Shown: piece after piece, positions 276 through 11,125 of the stretch
Numbering within the stretch: position 1 is the first letter of the stretch
How the letters are laid out: each line of letters begins with the position of its first letter
Assembly: GCF_008632075.1 (NCBI RefSeq)
Contig: NZ_VWVM01000003.1
Span: 62,001 to 126,000 of the forward strand
Origin: Candidatus Pantoea gossypiicola
GTDB lineage: Bacteria; Pseudomonadota; Gammaproteobacteria; Enterobacterales; Enterobacteriaceae
DNA length: 64,000 nucleotides
Reading direction: 5' to 3'
Notes under the pieces: generated by a model
The model's database searches: none
Seen by the model: the letters and a program-made list of their open reading frames with translations, nothing else
What the model was told of the DNA's origin: nothing
Translations under genes and position numbers: made by a program

Positions 276-554
276 ATGAATGAAAACTCGATTGCCGTGT
301 TTCGTCGCGGCTACCGTATGCAGTGGGAAGCTGCTCAGGATACCCATGTGGTGCTCTATCCCGAAGGCATGGCGAAGCTGAACGAAACCGCCGCCGCCAT
401 TCTTGAGCTGGTGGATGGCAAACAGGATATTGCCGCGATCATTGCGACGCTGGATAGCCGTTTTCCGGAAGCGGGCGGCGTGGGGCCGGACGTTTTAGAG
501 TTCCTGCAGTCAGCCTATGAACAAAAGTGGATACAGTTCCGTGACCCCGCATAA
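276..554 (+). CDS. pqqD: PQQ biosynthesis peptide chaperone PqqD
   Basis: A 92-residue protein of typical PqqD length with the family pattern [17 protein letters not shown] in its first half. PqqD binds the PqqA precursor peptide and presents it to the radical SAM enzyme PqqE. It starts 3 nt after the pqqC stop and its end overlaps the start of pqqE by 14 nt, so the genes are probably translationally coupled. Nothing unusual is seen. Confidence 0.95.
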
Positions 555-1683
555 ACCCGGCGTGAATCCCCCGCTCTGGCTGCTGGCCGAGCTGACCTAT
601 CGCTGTCCGCTGCAGTGTCCCTACTGCTCCAACCCGCTGGATTTCGCGCAGCAGGAGAAGGAGCTGACCACGGAGCAGTGGATTGAGGTCTTTCGTCAGG
701 CGCGCGCCATGGGCAGCGTCCAGCTTGGATTCTCCGGCGGCGAGCCGCTGGTGCGTAAAGATCTGCCTGAACTGATTAAGGCGGCGCGCGATCTCGGCTT
801 TTACACCAACCTGATCACGTCGGGCATTGGCCTGACGGAGAAGAAGCTGGATGCGTTCAGCGAGGCCGGTCTGGATCATATCCAGATCAGTTTCCAGGCG
901 AGTGACGAAACCCTGAATGCGGCGCTCGCCGGGTCGAAGAAAGCGTTTCAGCAGAAGCTGGAGATGGCGAAAGCGGTAAAAGCGCACGGCTATCCGATGG
1001 TGCTGAACTTTGTGCTGCATCGCCATAACATTGACCAGATTGATAAGATCATCGAACTCTGCATTGAGCTGGAAGCGGATGACGTAGAGCTGGCGACCTG
1101 TCAGTTCTACGGCTGGGCGCAGCTCAATCGCGAAGGCCTGCTGCCGACGCGTGAACAGATCGCTCAGGCGGAAGCGGTGGTCAGCCGCTACCGTGAGCGG
1201 ATGAGCGACAGCGGCAATCTCACGAATCTGTTGTTTGTGACGCCTGACTACTACGAAGAGCGACCTAAACCCTGCATGGGCGGCTGGGGGGCGATCTTTC
1301 TCAGCGTCACACCAGAAGGCACCGCGCTGCCGTGCCACAGTGCGCGCCAGCTGCCGATTGAATTTCCGTCGGTGCTGACACAGCGCCTGGATGATATCTG
1401 GTACAACTCGTTCGGCTTCAACCGCTATCGCGGTTTTGACTGGATGCCGGAGCCGTGCCGCTCCTGTGATGAAAAAGAGAAAGATTTTGGTGGCTGTCGC
1501 TGTCAGGCCTTTATGCTGACCGGTAATGCTGACAACACCGATCCGGTCTGCAGCAAATCACCGCATCACGGCAAAATTCTCGAAGCCCGGCGTGAGGCGG
1601 ATTGCAGCGACATAAAAATTGGTCAGCTGCAGTTCCGCAACCGAAGTAACTCGCAACTGATCTACAAAACCCGGAACCTCTGA
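541..1683 (+). CDS. pqqE: PqqA peptide cyclase PqqE (radical SAM)
   Basis: Radical SAM/SPASM enzyme that forms the Glu-Tyr carbon-carbon crosslink in PqqA. The CxxxCxxC cluster motif is CPLQCPYC, and Cys-rich SPASM segments ([26 protein letters not shown]) occupy the C-terminal third. I chose GTG at 541 because it gives 380 residues and places the cluster cysteines at 22, 26 and 29, as in Klebsiella PqqE from memory. An in-frame ATG at 517 would add eight residues and lengthen the overlap with pqqD. The stop overlaps the start of pqqF (TGATG). Confidence 0.95.
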
Positions 1684-3956
1684 TGACCACGCGCGGACTG
1701 GTGATAGAGGGTCTGACGGTGGAACTGGTGCATCAGGCTGATGCCAGCCAGGCCGCCGCCCTGATTCGGGTAGGGGCAGGGAGTCACGACGAGCCGGATC
1801 GCTGGCCCGGACTGGCGCATCTGCTGGAGCATCTGCTGTTCACCGGCAGCACCGGCTGGCCCGATGAGGGCCGGCTGATGAGCTGGATCCAGACGCAGGG
1901 CGGCAGGGTTAACGCCACCACGCTGGCCCGGCGCAGCGCGTACTTTTTTGAGGTCACGCCGTCGCTGCTGGCAGACGGGCTGGCAAGACTGCAGGATATG
2001 CTGGTCTCTCCGCTGCTCGATAATCAGGCGATTGCGCAGGAAGTGGCGGTCATCGACGCGGAGTATCAGCTGTTGCAGCGCCATGAGCCATCCCGCATTG
2101 AAGCGGCATTGCTGCACGCCGCGGAAACCTCCGCTGAATTTCAGCGCTTTCATGTCGGCAGCCGGGCGAGCTTTGGCGACGAGCTCTCTGCGCTGCAACG
2201 GGCATTGCGCCAGTTTCACCAGCGCTACTACGTTGCCAGCAATATGCGGCTCTGGCTGCAGGGACCGCAGTCGCTGGATGAGCTGGAACAGCTGGCGCAT
2301 CAGTTTGCCGCCGCGCTGCCTGCCGGTCAGTGGCGGCAGGATTTGACACCGCCGCAGCTCAACAGCGATACCTGCTGGCAACTGGCGGAGACAGCCCAGG
2401 CAGCGTTATGGCGCACCTGGCTGCTGGACAATAGTGACGGTGTCACGTTATGGCGTGAATTTCTGTTGGATGAAGCGCCTGGCTCGCTGCTGGCGACTCT
2501 GCGTGAGCAGGGGCTGGCCGAGGGACTGGAGCTTAAATGGATTTATCAGGCTGAAGATGCGTGCTGGCTGGCGTTGGGTATCGAAACCAGCGAGCCTGAG
2601 AAGGTAAATCATCTGGTTAACGGTTACCTCACTGCGCTGCGCCAGACGACTGCACAGCAACATCTGCACTATCATCAGCTTGCATATCAGCAATTTGTGA
2701 CATTGTCACCACTGGAGCAGTTGCGTCAGCGCGCTATCGGCTTCACACCTGATATAAGCCTGCCTGCGCTGCAGCCGCTACTGGATAAACTCACCCATGC
2801 GCCTGGCACAGTGCTGTGCTGTACGTCGCAACCGGCAAGGGAACAGATCGTCACGCAGGGCTTCACGCTGGCGCTGACGGCCTGTGAGCCAGCCCAGGAT
2901 GAGAGGCTGCCCGCTGCCCGTTTCACCTTCTATCCGCTCGACATCACTGCCACGCCTTCGCCGCTGCCCGCGCAGGCGGTGGCATTGCCGCATCATCCGT
3001 CAGAGGACCCGCAGGCAACGCTGATCCTGCGCCCGGAATTTTATTCAACCTTTACCGCCGAAACCGGCGAAGCGCTGGGACGACGGTTGCGTCCGCTGTT
3101 TGCAGCGCTGCGTCACCAGGGCGGTCACGGCAGCTGGCAGGAAACAGAGGGCGTGTGGCAACTGACGGTCCGGCTGACATCGGATCAGGCGGTCGCTGAC
3201 CAGGCGCTGAGCCAGATTGTCTCTGCCCTGGCATTGCCGGTTGAGGCAAATCTGCCATTGCCTGTTGAAAGCATCGCTATCCGTGCGTTGCTGCGACAGT
3301 TGCCTTATCAGCTGGCAGCCAACGTTACGCCAGGATGCTGGCGGGCGGCGCTGAAGGGCGGCGATGCGATGCTGCACTCAGTGATTGCCCGGCGGCTGAG
3401 CGCGCTGTCGCTGCCGGTCAACCCTGACACGTCGCCCAAACGTATGACTACGCAGACCGGCATGACGCGCCTGCCGCACGCCAGTGCAGACAACGCGCTG
3501 CTGCTGTTTATTCCGCTGCAGCGTCCTGAGCAGCTGGCGGCATTGCGCGCGCTGGCGCTCATCTATGAGCCGCGTTTTTTCCAGCGCTACCGCGTTGAGC
3601 AGCAGATAGGTTATGTGGTCAGCAGTCGCTATATGCGCTGTGCCGATGAAGATGGGGTGTTATTTGCGCTGCAGTCGCCCGATTACAGCGCATTGTCACT
3701 GCTGCGCTACTGCCGCAACTTCCTGCGGTCACTGAACGAGACGCTGGCGGGATGTGATCTGGTGGCCCTGAAAGCGCGACTGCTGAGCCAGCAGGCTGAG
3801 CAGCCACTGGCCCTGTTGCGCCGTGAAAATGGCCTGGCCGAACCGGACGCGGCGCAGATTGCGGCGCTGACCCTTGCAGATTTACAGCAATTGCACCGCA
3901 CGCTGATTCAGGATCGCCGCCGCTGGCGGGTGCTGTTCACCGGCAGGAATGCATAG
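1683..3956 (+). CDS. pqqF: PQQ biosynthesis zinc peptidase PqqF
   Basis: A 757-residue M16 (insulinase/pitrilysin) family protease. The inverted zinc motif HxxEH is present as H46-L-L-E49-H50, with a downstream acidic segment QEVAVIDAEYQ carrying the expected third zinc ligand. PqqF, in the enterobacterial pqq operon, is thought to trim the crosslinked PqqA peptide. The rest of the protein is the usual repeated M16 half-domains, with the second half lacking the metal motif. The start overlaps the pqqE stop by one base, and no further pqq gene follows. It is probably the last gene of the operon. Confidence 0.93.
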   Translation: MTTRGLVIEGLTVELVHQADASQAAALIRVGAGSHDEPDRWPGLAHLLEHLLFTGSTGWPDEGRLMSWIQTQGGRVNATTLARRSAYFFEVTPSLLADGLARLQDMLVSPLLDNQAIAQEVAVIDAEYQLLQRHEPSRIEAALLHAAETSAEFQRFHVGSRASFGDELSALQRALRQFHQRYYVASNMRLWLQGPQSLDELEQLAHQFAAALPAGQWRQDLTPPQLNSDTCWQLAETAQAALWRTWLLDNSDGVTLWREFLLDEAPGSLLATLREQGLAEGLELKWIYQAEDACWLALGIETSEPEKVNHLVNGYLTALRQTTAQQHLHYHQLAYQQFVTLSPLEQLRQRAIGFTPDISLPALQPLLDKLTHAPGTVLCCTSQPAREQIVTQGFTLALTACEPAQDERLPAARFTFYPLDITATPSPLPAQAVALPHHPSEDPQATLILRPEFYSTFTAETGEALGRRLRPLFAALRHQGGHGSWQETEGVWQLTVRLTSDQAVADQALSQIVSALALPVEANLPLPVESIAIRALLRQLPYQLAANVTPGCWRAALKGGDAMLHSVIARRLSALSLPVNPDTSPKRMTTQTGMTRLPHASADNALLLFIPLQRPEQLAALRALALIYEPRFFQRYRVEQQIGYVVSSRYMRCADEDGVLFALQSPDYSALSLLRYCRNFLRSLNETLAGCDLVALKARLLSQQAEQPLALLRRENGLAEPDAAQIAALTLADLQQLHRTLIQDRRRWRVLFTGRNA

Positions 3957-6047: not shown

Positions 6048-6063
6048 TGTGAGTCATATCACA
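6048..6063. promoter_or_regulatory. CRP-binding site upstream of the PTS operon
   Basis: TGTGA-N6-TCACA with both half-sites perfect, 137 nt before the first gene of the PTS cluster. It predicts cAMP-CRP activation and hence glucose repression of the cluster. Confidence 0.8.
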
Positions 6064-6199
6064 AATAAAGCGATGTTAAGAGCACTGTCAATATCCCCGT
6101 CTGAAAAATACCGCGCGTAACTGTGATCTCCTCTGCAAATAGCAACCCCGCGAACCGGAAGAATGGCCCTCAGCAGAGTAAGCCAGCGAGGTGAGGGAA

Positions 6200-7180
6200 A
6201 TGCGAATTGGAATGGTGATCAGTGGCGGTGACGTGACCGGCATTAATAATTTTGTCTTTCAGATTGGGCGTATGGCGCAGGCTGAGATGGTGATATTTGA
6301 CGGCGGTATTCCCGGCCTGCTGGAAAATAATCATCGTGAGATCAGCCAGCGCGATCTGCTCGACTTTTCCATCGCCTCTATTCCGGTTATGCAATCGGGA
6401 CGCACTGAAAAGAAACTGGTGCGCAGCGAATATGAGTTAATTGCACGCCAGCTGAAAAGTGCCCGTATTGATATAGTAATTATGGCGGGGGGGGACGGGT
6501 CGCTGCAATTTCTTCATACCCTGTCGGCATATGGTGTGAATTGTTTTGGCGTCGGTATGACCATCGATAATGATGTCTTCGGCAGTGATTACACGCTGGG
6601 ATTTTCTACCGCCTGCGAGCAGGTATTAAAAGAGGTCGCGAAACTGCGTAATACCGGCCGCGCCTTACCGGGCCGGGTTTTTATGCTGGAATTACTCGGC
6701 GGCTATTGCGGTGAATTGACCCTGCAGTCCGCGATTAAATCTAACGCGGATATTGCGCTGATCCCCGAGTGCCAGATCCCGCTGCCACAACTGGCGCAGC
6801 GCATCACCCGGCGGCTGGCAGAGCAGAACAGCGTGGTCATCCTCTGTTCAGAAGGCTACACCCGCGAATACTCGCCCGGTTTTCAGGGGGCGATCGACAC
6901 CTTAATCAAACAGCTTGAACCGCTTATTGGCGTGCGCATCCGTAAGACCATTCTGGGTTACGGGCTGCGCAATGGTGATCCGACCTGCGAAGAGATCTTT
7001 CAGGGCACCATTATAGCCAGTGAAGTGGTGCGTTGTATTCAGTCAGGTATGCGGAATAAAGCGGTCATTATTAATGGCAGCAATAAACCGATCCCGATTG
7101 ATTTAATAAGCATGCAAAAACGCCTGGTCGATATTGACGGGCACCATTACAAACTCGCTAAGCAACTCAATATAGTGTGA
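6200..7180 (+). CDS. PfkA-family 6-phosphofructokinase-like sugar kinase
   Basis: A 326-residue ATP-dependent PFK-A family protein. It keeps the nucleotide motif GGDGS, the catalytic TIDND and the N-terminal ISGGD loop (ISGGDVTGIN instead of TSGGDAPGMN). Compared from memory with E. coli PfkA, Arg162 of MGRYCG is Gly here (LLGGYCG) and His249 is Tyr, both in the fructose-6-phosphate site, so the substrate may be a different hexose or ketose phosphate. It heads a PTS operon that also encodes an aldolase, which suggests it makes the bisphosphate that the aldolase cleaves. ATG at 6200 follows GAGGTGAGG; a GTG at 6191 would overlap this ribosome site. Confidence 0.85.
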   Translation: MRIGMVISGGDVTGINNFVFQIGRMAQAEMVIFDGGIPGLLENNHREISQRDLLDFSIASIPVMQSGRTEKKLVRSEYELIARQLKSARIDIVIMAGGDGSLQFLHTLSAYGVNCFGVGMTIDNDVFGSDYTLGFSTACEQVLKEVAKLRNTGRALPGRVFMLELLGGYCGELTLQSAIKSNADIALIPECQIPLPQLAQRITRRLAEQNSVVILCSEGYTREYSPGFQGAIDTLIKQLEPLIGVRIRKTILGYGLRNGDPTCEEIFQGTIIASEVVRCIQSGMRNKAVIINGSNKPIPIDLISMQKRLVDIDGHHYKLAKQLNIV

Positions 7181-7190
7181 GGAAAAAACC

Positions 7191-7505
7191 ATGCTGAAAA
7201 TACTCTGTGTCTGTGGTTGTGGATTAGGTTCCAGTTTTGCAATTGAGATGAGCGCAAAAGCAGTATTAAAAAAGCTGGAAATTGAGGCTGATATCGATCA
7301 CACCACCATTTCAGAAGCGAATGCCTTTAAGTCAGATATGATCCTGACGCAAAAAGCCTTTGCCGATGTTTTAAACGCCGACGCCAGTCCGGAGCAGATT
7401 AAACGGGTCATTATTCTTAACCGGCTGACCGATAAAGCGGAAATAGAGCAGAAGATCCTGGCCTTTTTAAAAGAACGCAACCAGAAGGTCGCCGCCCATG
7501 AATAG
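7191..7505 (+). CDS. PTS sugar transporter subunit IIB, ascorbate/lactose type
   Basis: A 104-residue IIB domain with the phosphorylatable Cys8 in VCGCGLGSS, the P-loop of the UlaB/SgaB type. It accepts phosphate from IIA and passes it to the sugar in the IIC channel. It starts 10 nt after the kinase and its end overlaps the IIC start by 8 nt, so the two are coupled. Confidence 0.88.
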   Translation: MLKILCVCGCGLGSSFAIEMSAKAVLKKLEIEADIDHTTISEANAFKSDMILTQKAFADVLNADASPEQIKRVIILNRLTDKAEIEQKILAFLKERNQKVAAHE

Positions 7506-8865
7506 TGTGATCGACTTCCTGGTAAAAGATCTGCTGGGGCAGGCGTCGATTCTGATCGCCTTTATTGCCCTGATTGGTCTGCTGCTGCAAAAAAAATCGG
7601 CAGGCAAGGTGGTGGAAGGCACCTTTAAAACCCTGCTCGGCTTTTTAATTATGATGGCGGGTATCAATATTATTGTGGGCACCCTGACGTTCCTCAATAC
7701 TATTTTCACCCATGGCTTTGGCATGCGCGGCTATATCACCGATGTGGCCGCCATTGCCGGGCTGGCTAACCGTGAGCTGGGGTCGGAAGTGGCGCTGACA
7801 CTGCTGGTGATCTTTATCGTCAACATCATCATCGCCCGACTGACGCCGTTTAAGTACATCTTCCTGACCGGCCAGGCGTTGCTGTGGATGGCGACCATTG
7901 GCGCGGTGATCGGCTATAAAGCGGGGCTGACCGGCCTGCCGCTGATTCTGACCGGCGGCATCTTTGGCGGGATTATGGCGGTCGTGATGCCCGCGCTGGC
8001 GCAGCCAGTGGTGCGGCGCATCACCGACTCGGACGACGTGGCACTGGGTCATTTCTGCACCATCGGTTATCTGGTCACGGCGGCGGTCGCCAAAGTGGTT
8101 GGCAAAGGATCGCGTTCCACCGAAGACCTGAAGCTGCCCGATAACTTTAAGTTTCTGCAGGATACCTATCTGTCGATGGCGCTGGTGATGGTGCCAATGT
8201 ACCTGATCCCCGCCGTGGCAGCCGGTCCGGCCTTCATTGCCCAGTACAGCAACGGCATGAACTACCTGATGTACGCCTTTATGCAGTCGATTCAGTTCGT
8301 GGCCGGGGTCTTCGTGCTCTACAGCGGCGTCCGCCTGCTGCTGAACGAACTGGTGCCTGCCTTCCGGGGTATCGCGATGCGCGTGGTGCCAGATGCGAAA
8401 CCGGCGCTGGACTGCCCGGTGATGTTTCCGTACGCCCCGAATGCGGTGATTGTCGGCTTCCTTGCCACCACCCTTGGCTCCATCGTCGGCATGCTGGTCT
8501 TCCCGATGTTTGGTCTGGCGATGATCCTGCCTGGCCTGCTGACCAACTTCTTTGCCGGTGGCACCGCCGGAGTATTTGGTAATGCCATGGGCGGGCGGCG
8601 CGGCGCGATGATCGGCGGCTTCGTCCACGGTCTCTTTATCACCATTCTGCCCGCCATCCTGGTGCCGATGCTGGAGAGCTACGGCTTCACCGGCGTCACC
8701 TTCAGTGACTCCGACGTGATCAGTACCGGCCTGGTGCTTGGTCATGCCTTCCAGAATAACTGGCTGTTTGTCGCCCTGTTTATCGCCTTTATTACCGCGC
8801 TTGCCTGGTTTGTTAATGGCAAATCGACCAAACCTCAGGAGGAAAAAATTCATGAAACTTTATAA
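7498..8865 (+). CDS. PTS transporter subunit IIC, UlaA family
   Basis: A 455-residue, highly hydrophobic protein with about eleven membrane segments, matching the UlaA/SgaT family (KSAGKVVEGTFKTLLGFLIM near the N-terminus; FFAGGTAGVFGNAMGGRRGA near the C-terminus). The family includes the L-ascorbate permease, but no ulaD/E/F-type pentose genes are present here and the downstream enzymes are hexose-bisphosphate type, so the substrate is probably not ascorbate. It overlaps both IIB (8 nt) and the aldolase (14 nt). Confidence 0.88.
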   Translation: MNSVIDFLVKDLLGQASILIAFIALIGLLLQKKSAGKVVEGTFKTLLGFLIMMAGINIIVGTLTFLNTIFTHGFGMRGYITDVAAIAGLANRELGSEVALTLLVIFIVNIIIARLTPFKYIFLTGQALLWMATIGAVIGYKAGLTGLPLILTGGIFGGIMAVVMPALAQPVVRRITDSDDVALGHFCTIGYLVTAAVAKVVGKGSRSTEDLKLPDNFKFLQDTYLSMALVMVPMYLIPAVAAGPAFIAQYSNGMNYLMYAFMQSIQFVAGVFVLYSGVRLLLNELVPAFRGIAMRVVPDAKPALDCPVMFPYAPNAVIVGFLATTLGSIVGMLVFPMFGLAMILPGLLTNFFAGGTAGVFGNAMGGRRGAMIGGFVHGLFITILPAILVPMLESYGFTGVTFSDSDVISTGLVLGHAFQNNWLFVALFIAFITALAWFVNGKSTKPQEEKIHETL

Positions 8866-9694
8866 CTTCGCCGATCTGTTACAGCTGGCCAAACAGCGTG
8901 ACTTTAAAGCGGTCGGTTCGTTTAATCTCCACTGTCTGGAGATGCTGCCCGCCTATTTTAAAGCGGCAGAGAAAACCAACAGCCCGTTAATGATTCAAAT
9001 CTCCACCGGCACGGCGAAATATCTCGGCCATAAACTGCTGGTCGATGCGATTAAATCGCTATCAGAGAGTACGAATGTGCCGACCTGCCTGCATCTCGAT
9101 CACTGTTCCGATTTAGCGGCGATTCAGACGGCGATTGATGCCGGATTCAGTTCTGTCATGTACGACGGCTCACATCTGCCCATTGATGAGAATATTGCGA
9201 ATACCCGTCGTGTGATTGATATGGCGCGGCCACACAATGTCTCGGTAGAAGCGGAGCTGGGTGCCATCGGCGGGTCGGAAGATGGTCAATGCGTAGAGAT
9301 GGAGGCGATAGCGTTCACGCCGGTGGAAGATGCTCGCCGCTTCGTTGAAGAGACCGGCGTCGATATGCTGGCGATCTCCATCGGCACCGTGCACGGGCTT
9401 TACACCGGTAAAGCGCATATTCAGCATCAGCGGCTGGCAGATATTACGGCGGCAACCCATACGCCCCTGGTGCTGCACGGCGGTACTGGCGTCAGCGATG
9501 AGGATATGCGGCTGGCGGTCAGCAGCGGAATTGAGAAGGTGAATGTCGGCACCGAAATGAATGTGCAGTGGGTGGCGCAGTGCAAATCGACCTTCGAAAA
9601 AGGCAAAGTTAATGACAGCGTACGTAATTTCCTGGTACCGGCTAATGATGCGGTGACGAATGTGCTGGTAGAGAAAATGCAGTTATTCCGGTAA
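8852..9694 (+). CDS. Class II fructose/tagatose-bisphosphate aldolase
   Basis: A 280-residue zinc aldolase of the GatY/KbaY/FbaA group. Metal and substrate motifs are HLDHC (zinc His84), VEAELGAIGG, GTVHGLY and LHGGTGVS. It cleaves a ketose 1,6-bisphosphate to glycerone phosphate and an aldehyde phosphate. ATG at 8852 follows CAGGAGG and lies inside the end of the IIC gene. With the PfkA-like kinase it forms a two-step route from the PTS product into glycolysis. Confidence 0.9.
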   Translation: MKLYNFADLLQLAKQRDFKAVGSFNLHCLEMLPAYFKAAEKTNSPLMIQISTGTAKYLGHKLLVDAIKSLSESTNVPTCLHLDHCSDLAAIQTAIDAGFSSVMYDGSHLPIDENIANTRRVIDMARPHNVSVEAELGAIGGSEDGQCVEMEAIAFTPVEDARRFVEETGVDMLAISIGTVHGLYTGKAHIQHQRLADITAATHTPLVLHGGTGVSDEDMRLAVSSGIEKVNVGTEMNVQWVAQCKSTFEKGKVNDSVRNFLVPANDAVTNVLVEKMQLFR

Positions 9695-9788
9695 TTACCC
9701 GTGCCGCCATCACCGGGTTAATGCGTTAACGATCTTTTATTCACTGTTTAGATTAGCTACCCCAATATTATATGGGGCAGGAGAGCCT

Positions 9789-10058
9789 ATGTTTGGATTT
9801 CTCAAAAAGTCTCCGGCTGTGGAACCACTCAGCGAGCAGCAGCAGGATCATCTGGCGGAATTAAGTCGCGAGAAAATAACGCAACTGGAGCAGCAGCTGG
9901 CAATGAATCCGCGTGATGGCGAAACGCAAAAACAATTAATGCTGGAATATAACCGGGCATTAAGCCTGTTTGCGAAAAGCCGTCGCTACCGCAATGAAAT
10001 TGATGCGCTGTTTGTCAAAATCGATGAATTACGCAATGTGGTTCGCCAGTCGATTTAA
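9789..10058 (+). CDS. Small coiled-coil protein of unknown function in a PTS operon
   Basis: An 89-residue protein, rich in Glu, Gln, Arg and Leu, predicted to be almost wholly helical with heptad-like leucines (LSREKITQLEQQLAMN; YRNEIDALFVKIDELR). No signal peptide or membrane segment. I do not recognise a family. It follows the aldolase by 94 nt, with GGAG ahead of the ATG and a short GC dyad (CCCCA/TGGGG, 9760-9777) just upstream, and is followed 9 nt later by PTS IIA. It may be an accessory or regulator of the PTS, but this is only inferred from position. Confidence 0.7.
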   Translation: MFGFLKKSPAVEPLSEQQQDHLAELSREKITQLEQQLAMNPRDGETQKQLMLEYNRALSLFAKSRRYRNEIDALFVKIDELRNVVRQSI

Positions 10059-10067
10059 GGAGAGCTG

Positions 10068-10505
10068 ATGACGATAAAGCAGTTATTGCAGGAGGCCAAC
10101 GCCATTCAGATTGGCATCGATGCCACGGACTGGCGTCAGGTTATCGCGCTGGCCGCCGAACCGCTGGTCAGCGGCGGTTATCTTGATGCCACCTATCCTG
10201 ATGCCGTGATCGCCAATACGCTGGCTCACGGCGCTTATTATGTGTTTGAGGAGGGGATCGCCATTCCCCATGCGCGACCGGAAGCGGGGGTGATCCGCGA
10301 CTGTTTCAGTCTGATCCTGCTGAATGAGCCGATCTCATTTGAGGGCAGCGATAAGGCGGACATTGTGATTATGTTTGGCGCACGCGACAGCAACGCGCAT
10401 ATTGAAGAGGGGATCCGCGCGATTGTGTCGCTGCTGGAGGATGAGGAGACGCTGGTCCGGCTACGTCAGGCCAGCAGTGTGGCGGAGGTTATCGACATTC
10501 TATGA
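10068..10505 (+). CDS. PTS subunit IIA, mannitol/fructose-type fold (UlaC-like)
   Basis: A 145-residue IIA domain. The phosphorylated histidine is His68 in GIAIPHARPE, the usual signature of PTS EIIA type 2. It takes phosphate from HPr and feeds the IIB at 7191. It completes the transporter, although separated from IIB/IIC by the aldolase and the coiled-coil gene. The stop overlaps the next ATG (ATGA). Confidence 0.88.
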   Translation: MTIKQLLQEANAIQIGIDATDWRQVIALAAEPLVSGGYLDATYPDAVIANTLAHGAYYVFEEGIAIPHARPEAGVIRDCFSLILLNEPISFEGSDKADIVIMFGARDSNAHIEEGIRAIVSLLEDEETLVRLRQASSVAEVIDIL

Positions 10506-11125
10506 CGCAAAACATTCCCCCCAAACGTGTGGTGCTGGTTAACGGCATCCCCGCCTCAGGTAAAAGCACCCTGACGCACGCGCTGTCACAATACTTTGGC
10601 TGGCCGGTGCTGACCCTCGACAGGCTGAAAGAGCCGTTTATGCAGGCTTTTGCGCCGGTCGATCGCTCGCGTAACCGGCAACTGGGCTGCGCGGCTTATC
10701 AGGCGATCTGGAACATCGTCGAACAGGCATCCGCCAGTCAGGTCTGGCTGATTGATGCCTGGTTTGGGTTTCAGCCGCGCACGCTGCTGGAGCAGGGACT
10801 GCAACAGGCTGGCGTCGAAGAGGTGCTGGAACTGTGGCTGAAGATTGCGCCGGAGGTGGCGGTGGCGCGCTATCAGGCGCGGCTGTCGCAGCGGCTGCCG
10901 GGCCATCCGGGGGCTGAGTATCTGCCGGAGTTGCGCCAGCTGGCGCAACAGGCCAGGCCGATGGCGCTGGGTCCGGTGTGTGAAGTGGATGCCTGCGCTC
11001 AGGATCACGCGGCCATTATCCACTGGCTGCAACAGCAACTGACCAGAACCCGCTACACTTCAGCTCATCATCAGAAGAGTGAGGAGTTGCAGGATGTCAT
11101 CACCCCCGTATCTGCAAACCGGTGA
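10502..11125 (+). CDS. P-loop AAA-type kinase
   Basis: A 207-residue protein with Walker A GIPASGKST at residues 14-22 and a following LDRLKEPF segment, as in zeta-toxin/chloramphenicol phosphotransferase-like small-molecule kinases. The substrate is unknown. It is coupled to IIA by a 4-nt overlap, so it may phosphorylate a sugar-derived compound, but antibiotic or nucleotide substrates cannot be excluded. The C-terminal 30 residues after the helical domain look unconserved and overlap the next gene. Confidence 0.75.
   Translation: MTQNIPPKRVVLVNGIPASGKSTLTHALSQYFGWPVLTLDRLKEPFMQAFAPVDRSRNRQLGCAAYQAIWNIVEQASASQVWLIDAWFGFQPRTLLEQGLQQAGVEEVLELWLKIAPEVAVARYQARLSQRLPGHPGAEYLPELRQLAQQARPMALGPVCEVDACAQDHAAIIHWLQQQLTRTRYTSAHHQKSEELQDVITPVSANR

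Follow-up and report, generated by a model that had tools for sequence, protein, structure and literature searches.

A conserved phosphotransferase-kinase-aldolase operon of Pantoea and other enterobacteria that probably serves a ketose other than ascorbate

Introduction

In Escherichia coli, the ulaABCDEF operon encodes an ascorbate phosphotransferase system (PTS) from separate IIA, IIB and IIC genes, together with a lactonase, a decarboxylase and epimerases, and the structural report on its EIIC carrier, UlaA, lists 11 residues around the bound ascorbate (PMC6048161). In the tagKTH, gat and kba/aga routes (GatY/KbaY), a sugar phosphate is converted by a kinase to a ketose 1,6-bisphosphate, which is the substrate of a class II aldolase, and Gram-positive bacteria possess the LacCD tagatose-6-phosphate pathway. 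The kinases TagK and LacC are of the PfkB type. Here we describe a seven-gene operon of Candidatus Pantoea gossypiicola in which a PTS of the UlaA fold family is combined with a PfkA-family kinase, a class II aldolase, a P-loop kinase of the AAA_33 family and a protein of 89 amino acids (89 aa). The operon occupies positions 6200-11125 on the forward strand of a 64,000-nucleotide stretch of contig NZ_VWVM01000003.1, the whole of which is referred to below as the window.

It is proposed that this operon is probably a CRP-controlled catabolic route for a ketose other than ascorbate, in which PTS import would be followed by a second phosphorylation and aldol cleavage. With the exception of the 89-aa protein, its parts are members of known families, and the logic of PTS, kinase and aldolase is likewise known; new to us are the gene combination, the signature of the PfkA-family kinase and the link between the AAA_33 kinase and ROK::AAA fusion proteins. 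No description of the operon was found in the open-access literature within the terms searched.

Results

The host genome of the window is 4.94 Mb in size, and the closest named loci are from Pantoea. The seven genes of the operon mostly overlap or are closely spaced. A sequence-only reading of the window had placed a PfkA-family gene, a UlaA-type PTS and a class II aldolase together, an arrangement confirmed by Pfam for the genes in line at 6200-10505. The extent given in that reading, 6048-10505, starts at the first base of the CRP-type site described below, but it omits the AAA_33 kinase gene, with which the operon ends at 11125.

Conservation of the seven-gene block is far beyond chance. 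Among 62 loci, typed by best tblastn match (so that frameshifts are invisible) and comprising 40 named loci from a scan of GTDB species genomes plus others, 50 carry all seven genes in identical order and strand. In a further 11, the order is kinase-IIB-IIC-89aa-IIA-AAA and a LacD-family class I aldolase comes after AAA, the class II aldolase being absent; seven of these 11 have a HAD gene after the aldolase, and two of them are located in one record (10 records). The remaining locus, L082, is a degenerate remnant and is the only one in which the 89-aa and AAA_33 genes are not members of the block (61/62). The PfkA-like gene is present in all 61 non-degenerate loci, its frame being split in L067, L071 and L081 at least. 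Records with the seven-gene order are from Pantoea, Serratia, Mangrovibacter, Chimaeribacter, Enterobacter, Erwinia and Klebsiella, and from another family of the same order. Locus L071 (CP125156.1) comes from a record of 5.37 Mb that bears the label of a Klebsiella pneumoniae plasmid but, judged by its size, is probably a chromosome; the kinase gene of L071 is split between two frames, and both kinase and aldolase are absent from the gene table.

The ratio of non-synonymous to synonymous substitution rates (dN/dS) ranged from 0.05 to 0.41 across the kinase, aldolase, 89-aa and AAA genes (three loci each, with one aldolase pair saturated at synonymous sites and giving no ratio), with values of 0.08-0.10 for the kinase and 0.20-0.41 for the 89-aa gene in three pairs each. 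Within the family, the kinase was found in 29 of 198 genomes and the 89-aa protein in 28, namely the kinase genomes minus the one with the remnant. In another family belonging to this order, six of 197 genomes gave kinase matches. At E<=1e-70, the kinase subfamily was detected in six of 148 genomes sampled order-wide and, among 274 sampled class-wide, in the window's own genome only, and phylum-wide sampling gave the 89-aa protein in 7/398 and the AAA protein in 8/319. A blastn search of E. coli with the kinase gene and part of the sister operon described below returned no match.

The EIIC gene (7498..8865, forward strand; Pfam EIIC-GAT, 413 bits) encodes a carrier of the UlaA-type fold family that is 26% identical to E. 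coli UlaA. As in the E. coli system, the other PTS components are encoded by separate genes: EIIB (7191..7505, forward; Pfam PTS_IIB) is 27% identical to UlaB, with which it shares the first Cys of its VCGCG motif, and EIIA (10068..10505, forward; Pfam PTS_EIIA_2) is 36% identical to UlaC, with His68 conserved between the two. The carrier exceeded the cut-offs of two PTS IIC families without a named sugar (NF009551, 819.9 against 657; NF009553, 457.3 against 423) and also that of NF006919, 'PTS ascorbate transporter subunit IIC' (488.5 against 380). Of the 11 ascorbate contacts listed in the UlaA report (PMC6048161), however, eight are replaced (T86V, Y87A, H135Q, I136A, Q139W, Q195F, I358L and M410V) and three are kept (H194, D314 and F362), as are Gly58, Gly286 and Arg288 of the V-motif. 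The eight substitutes are identical in 57 rows, except for one Leu at position 410, and the pocket is alike in loci with the class II aldolase and those with the LacD-type enzyme. The eight replaced contacts and the kept V-motif therefore suggest that the carrier works like UlaA but around a pocket of its own, which is strictly conserved. Elsewhere in the window's own genome, another stretch of UlaA-type EIIC was noted, partial and interrupted by an in-frame TAG (G000:C34:133903-134319; L115).

In place of the ascorbate enzymes of the ula operon, the block contains a kinase and an aldolase. A tblastn search with UlaD, UlaE, UlaF and UlaG of E. coli (E<=1e-4) found nothing in the 64-kb window, and ulaD-G are absent from the block in all 62 loci, which bears out the claim of the sequence-only reading that ascorbate catabolism genes are missing from the operon. 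That reading had also named homologous operons containing ascorbate genes as the finding that would speak against it; within the flanks fetched, such genes were seen in one of the 62 loci (L042), and there only as a separate ula operon. In this record, deposited as Enterobacter ludwigii, a complete ula operon (ulaR, ulaG and ulaA-F; L042:68-6758) with a UlaA 86% identical to that of E. coli precedes the kinase operon at a distance of 2.2 kb, the two being separated by a gene transcribed in the opposite direction. This natural control argues that the genome carries two different systems.

The first gene of the operon (6200..7180, forward) encodes a divergent member of the PfkA family, 326 aa in length from the ATG at 6200 (the list of open reading frames (ORFs) starts it at a GTG at 6191; Pfam PFK, 191 bits). 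The protein is 27% identical to E. coli PfkA and falls below every NCBIfam phosphofructokinase (PFK) cut-off (150.4 against 371.35 bits for the equivalog TIGR02482), and a canonical PfkA is encoded elsewhere in the same genome. Its residues were mapped, in literature numbering, through an alignment in which 23 subfamily rows were set against E. coli PfkA and 28 comparator PFKs; the roles of the named residues and the offset of the E. coli PfkA numbering are those that we assume. Unchanged in all 23 rows are R72, D103, G104, T125, D127, D129, R162, G170, E222, R243 and R252, and the window kinase thus shares with PfkA not only the fold family but also the ATP-type Gly104, the catalytic Asp127 and Arg162/243/252. 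Glu222 is shifted by one column beside an insertion in the MAFFT alignment; phmmer and a larger alignment pair Glu with Glu. Replaced in all 23 rows are G124 (by Met), M169 (by Leu), R171 (by Gly, or Ala in four rows) and H249 (by Tyr or Phe), the window kinase having Met124, Leu169, Gly171 and Tyr249. The allosteric-site residues R21, K211 and K213 are also changed in 23/23 rows, and R54 is kept in six, although these positions vary in the comparators too and positions 211-213 are near an insertion.

Met124, Leu169 and Gly/Ala171, present in 23/23 subfamily rows and 0/28 comparators, are the distinctive marks of this kinase subfamily; position 171 is Arg in 26 of the comparators and His in two. 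The sequence-only reading had assigned a Gly to PfkA Arg162, but the alignments show this Arg to be conserved (window R158) and the Gly (G167) to stand at Arg171. Its replacement of His249 by Tyr is real (Y253), but non-diagnostic: because Tyr249 occurs in 26 of the 28 comparators, 23 of which also have Asp104 and Lys124, it is no marker of a changed sugar. The subfamily formed a clade with 100/100 support on a long stem. Since the PFK tree contains stems of great length (6.2 and 2.2 changes per column), which elicited the long-branch warning of the tool, the deep placement of the PFK clades is unsure.

The class II (zinc) ketose-bisphosphate aldolase, of 280 aa (8852..9694, forward), scored above the cut-off of the general ketose-bisphosphate model TIGR00167 (265.4 against 215.6) and below those of the fructose-bisphosphate (FBP) equivalog TIGR01859 (296.8 against 343.05) and the tagatose-bisphosphate (TBP) equivalog TIGR01858, which represents GatY/KbaY (231.7 against 443.55). 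It is 32-37% identical to GatY/KbaY. The metal, catalytic Asp and phosphate Arg positions are kept in 43 rows, including the equivalent of FbaA R331 (window R258; 43/43), which we take to be the ligand of the far phosphate in bisphosphate aldolases of class II; the roles of the other named FbaA residues are assumed in the same way. At the position of FbaA Asp288, the window enzyme has Gly and GatY/KbaY have Ala, so that a small residue is common to both. The operon resembles the tagKTH, gat and kba/aga routes in its sequence of sugar phosphate, kinase, ketose 1,6-bisphosphate and class II aldolase, and differs from them in its PTS family, in a kinase of PfkA rather than PfkB type and in the additional AAA_33 and 89-aa proteins. 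No GatZ homologue was seen in the fetched loci.

For the LacD-family enzyme that replaces this aldolase in eleven loci, scores were obtained for the protein of L073: its closest family is tagatose 1,6-diphosphate aldolase, below the cut-off (149 against 184), and it is also below that of the LacD equivalog (49.4 against 432.2). The LacD-like aldolase of these loci is shared with the LacCD pathway, and the rhizobial homologue belongs to Pfam DeoC/LacD (PF01791); unlike LacCD, the replacement aldolase is below the LacD equivalog and the kinase is not of the PfkB type. As a class II aldolase is here exchanged for an unrelated class I enzyme, aldol cleavage of a sugar phosphate is therefore indicated as the job of the block, and the service of two unrelated aldolase classes in one block is the best evidence that points to it.

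The 89-aa protein (SML; 9789..10058, forward) has no Pfam or NCBIfam match. An AlphaFold2 (AF2) model (pLDDT 83) consists of three helices, and a fold search gave no match below E 0.3, the best PDB match being at E 0.31. It only weakly resembles a protein of about 100 aa encoded in the sister operon (hhalign E 1.7e-4, probability 49).

Upstream of the operon, a CRP-type site (TGTGAGTCATATCACA, 6048..6063) is a perfect TGTGA-N6-TCACA, 137-152 bases 5' of the kinase ATG. Sites with at most one mismatch to this consensus were found in 52 of 61 upstream regions (window included), within the same 31-position stretch, compared with 0.15% of Markov-resampled controls, and CRP would be expected to bind there. 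A second element is located at window:6122-6141 (TGTGATCTCCTCTGCAAATA), downstream of the CRP-type site, and TGCAAAT occurs at a similar position in nine of the 17 upstream regions inspected, the window included. No regulator conserved beside the window-type operon was seen among the loci inspected; a DeoR-type gene precedes the operon in seven Serratia loci and one further locus, and is not found there in Serratia L056 or Chimaeribacter L062.

The last gene (10502..11125, forward; 4-base overlap with the IIA gene) encodes a P-loop kinase of Pfam family AAA_33 with the motif NGIPASGKS, predicted to act on a sugar or sugar phosphate. Its AF2 model (pLDDT 93) has as best PDB match 2rhm, a putative kinase. 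At E<=1e-15, the AAA protein was detected in 37 of the 198 family genomes, 28 with the PFK-like gene and nine without. All nine carry a sister operon (loci L146-L154) with the order SorC-type regulator, LacD-like aldolase, AAA, IIA, IIB and IIC, followed in eight by the protein of about 100 aa; Pfam Sugar-bind was detected in the one regulator tested. The sister IIC is 66-69% identical to that of the window, and its pocket differs at one of the 11 positions (Gly for Ala at 87) in the eight loci compared. Between IIA and IIB, L152 also encodes a PFK with Met124, Phe169, Ala171 and Tyr249, which the tree places with the subfamily of the window kinase (95/97). None of the 198 genomes has two AAA matches, but mutual exclusion of the operon types (28 and nine genomes) was discarded as uninformative because about 1.3 overlaps would be expected by chance.

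The AAA domain was further found in plasmid records of Rhizobium, Agrobacterium and Aureimonas, with 51.7-60.6% identity to the sister-operon AAA among the matches listed. In all eight alphaproteobacterial loci read (L155-L162), it follows a ROK kinase as the C-terminal part of a ROK::AAA fusion (two of the eight were tested with Pfam for ROK and AAA_33), the fusion gene lies beside a LacD-like aldolase and a SorC-type gene, and seven of the eight have a ribose-type ATP-binding cassette (ABC) transporter. HAD and PdxJ-like genes were noted in some of these operons. The window AAA_33 kinase and the AAA portion of the Rhizobium fusion share 53% identity over 167 aa, and the LacD-like aldolase of these Rhizobiaceae/Aureimonas operons is 68% identical to that of the LacD-type enteric locus L073; by contrast, the ROK kinase and, in seven of eight loci, the ABC transporter replace the PTS, the regulator is of SorC type, and no PfkA-like gene was seen in the fetched stretches. 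The fusion to ROK and the exchange of the PTS for ABC plus ROK therefore suggest that AAA serves this pathway as a metabolic kinase. Of 72,556 plasmid records, 25 contain the LacD-like aldolase (E<=1e-40), many of them from close strains, and each of the 25 has AAA within about 2 kb. AAA without this aldolase was seen in the Klebsiella-labelled record, which has the class II enzyme, and as a remote match in Cryobacterium.

Two neighbouring clusters were noted. In the window, genes at 276-3956, 5' of the operon, resemble pqqD, pqqE and pqqF, names which we take from their sequences and which presumably denote pyrroloquinoline quinone synthesis. In L103, the opposite strand beside the kinase operon (L103:11733-17150) was read as another sugar PTS cluster, with a PRD-type regulator, two EIIA-like proteins, EIIB, EIIC and a ribulose-phosphate-3-epimerase-like gene, of which only the last is supported by a match (SgcE).

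Discussion

The conserved, replaced EIIC pocket, the conservation of the block and the aldolase swap support the view of the sequence-only reading that the operon is a dedicated route for a ketose or other phosphosugar rather than for ascorbate. In the pathway that we propose, EIIA, EIIB and EIIC would import the sugar and phosphorylate it, most likely at the end opposite to C1, which in a hexulose is C6. A second phosphate would then be placed on C1 at the expense of ATP, a step for which the PfkA-like enzyme is the best candidate, with the AAA_33 protein as a second kinase for the C1 step or one that may act on a companion intermediate. The aldolase, whether class II or, in eleven loci, LacD-type class I, would split the bisphosphate into two triose phosphates for glycolysis. 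As the block contains no isomerase or dehydrogenase, the imported sugar should already be a ketose.

The PfkA-like kinase, which the sequence-only reading had paired with the aldolase as the dedicated route, is not the whole story, AAA_33 being the more constant partner of the aldolase. A tentative extension of our proposal, which we hold to be less probable than not, is that AAA_33 forms an undescribed class of ketose-phosphate kinases at the hub of an exchangeable bisphosphate-cleavage module. In this module AAA would be the constant member, whereas the aldolase (class II or LacD-type), the means of import and first phosphorylation (a UlaA-type PTS, or an ABC transporter with a fused ROK kinase) and an optional specialised PfkA-like kinase would vary from lineage to lineage, the 89-aa protein being a new accessory dedicated to the PTS.

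Four other explanations were considered. Transport and use of ascorbate, as the automatic names imply, is in keeping with the NF006919 score of the carrier; with three of 11 contacts kept, no ulaD-G in the block in 62 loci and a genuine ula operon alongside in L042, it is extremely improbable, and ascorbate was rejected as the substrate on the EIIC contacts and gene content. Ordinary use of fructose or fructose 6-phosphate, in which case the operon would provide normal glycolysis with an extra PTS, PFK and aldolase, would agree with the retention of PfkA Arg162, Arg243 and Arg252 and with the higher score of the FBP than of the TBP aldolase model (296.8 against 231.7). The genome has its own canonical PfkA, however, Arg171 and Met169 are changed in 23/23 kinase rows, as are R21, K211 and K213 of the allosteric site (with R54 changed in 17/23, positions also variable in comparators), and the aldolase misses the FBP equivalog cut-off, so that we regard this explanation as quite unlikely.

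It could also be that the aldolase cleaves a ketose 1-phosphate made by the PTS and that AAA phosphorylates the released aldehyde, such as glyceraldehyde. This would account for the constant pairing of AAA and aldolase across the PTS and ABC/ROK versions, but it leaves the PfkA-type kinase unexplained and sits poorly with the far-phosphate Arg kept in all 43 aldolase rows; it is considered unlikely. Harder to set aside, though still rather doubtful, is an arrangement in which AAA_33 and not the PfkA-like enzyme makes the bisphosphate, the first phosphate coming from the PTS (or from ROK in rhizobia) and the PfkA-like enzyme being an accessory or serving a side substrate. The nine family genomes with AAA and without the PFK-like subfamily, in all of which AAA shares an operon with a LacD-like aldolase and a UlaA-type PTS, speak for it, as does the ROK::AAA fusion of the rhizobial operons. 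To our knowledge, rhizobia lack PfkA, which was counted on the same side. Against it stand the PfkA-like gene in 61/61 non-degenerate loci, its low dN/dS, the catalytic residues kept in 23 rows and one sister operon (L152) whose PFK bears these marks at positions 124, 171 and 249.

As to the sugar, D-tagatose is the best single guess, albeit one that is more likely to be wrong than right; D-allulose, a sorbose, a heptulose or a pentulose are the next candidates. D-tagatose is favoured by the LacD-type replacement aldolase and by the small residue that the class II enzyme, like GatY/KbaY, has in place of Asp288. E. coli PfkA is said to make tagatose bisphosphate from tagatose 6-phosphate (PMC10101011), and a Pantoea agglomerans-like leaf isolate was obtained from tagatose agar, which its authors call unconfirmed (PMC9607558); both were counted for D-tagatose. 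According to its description, Erwinia teleogrylli forms no acid from D-tagatose, forms acid from L-sorbose and uses D-psicose (PMC4723187), an observation not used as evidence.

Several points weigh against the pathway proposed above. There are two conserved kinases where one would do, and the simple scheme leaves the second unexplained. The CRP-type site is degenerate in nine of the 61 upstream regions, namely those of seven Serratia loci and a Chimaeribacter locus (two or three mismatches, in the same place) and of one locus of family f4, probably the Vibrionaceae. In eight of the nine sister operons, the 16-kb stretch yielded no PFK-like ORF, and the PFK of the ninth, L152, has 34.7% identity with E. 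coli PfkA but 28.4% with the window kinase, its placement in the tree resting on long branches. The open-access literature searched contained no assay or named substrate for any member of the operon. P. alhagi, for which Mixta is, we assume, another name, is among the relatives with recorded sugar tests. In its description it was D-tagatose- and sorbose-negative by API 50CH (PMC5269684), as were P. vagans, P. allii, P. ananatis and P. rhizosphaerae in a second source (PMC10375718), the operon status of all five being unchecked. Since E. coli PfkA is said to phosphorylate tagatose 6-phosphate (PMC10101011), a dedicated kinase for it would not be strictly needed.

If the proposed pathway is true, proteins automatically named 'ascorbate PTS' and '6-phosphofructokinase' in many plant-associated enterobacteria would belong to a different sugar pathway, and a family of unassigned P-loop kinases would gain a testable function. 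PFK paralogues with a possible specificity signature in common (Met124, Gly/Ala171) would offer material for studying substrate change in PfkA, and a rare-sugar nutrient would be common to the enterics, another family of their order and the rhizobia.

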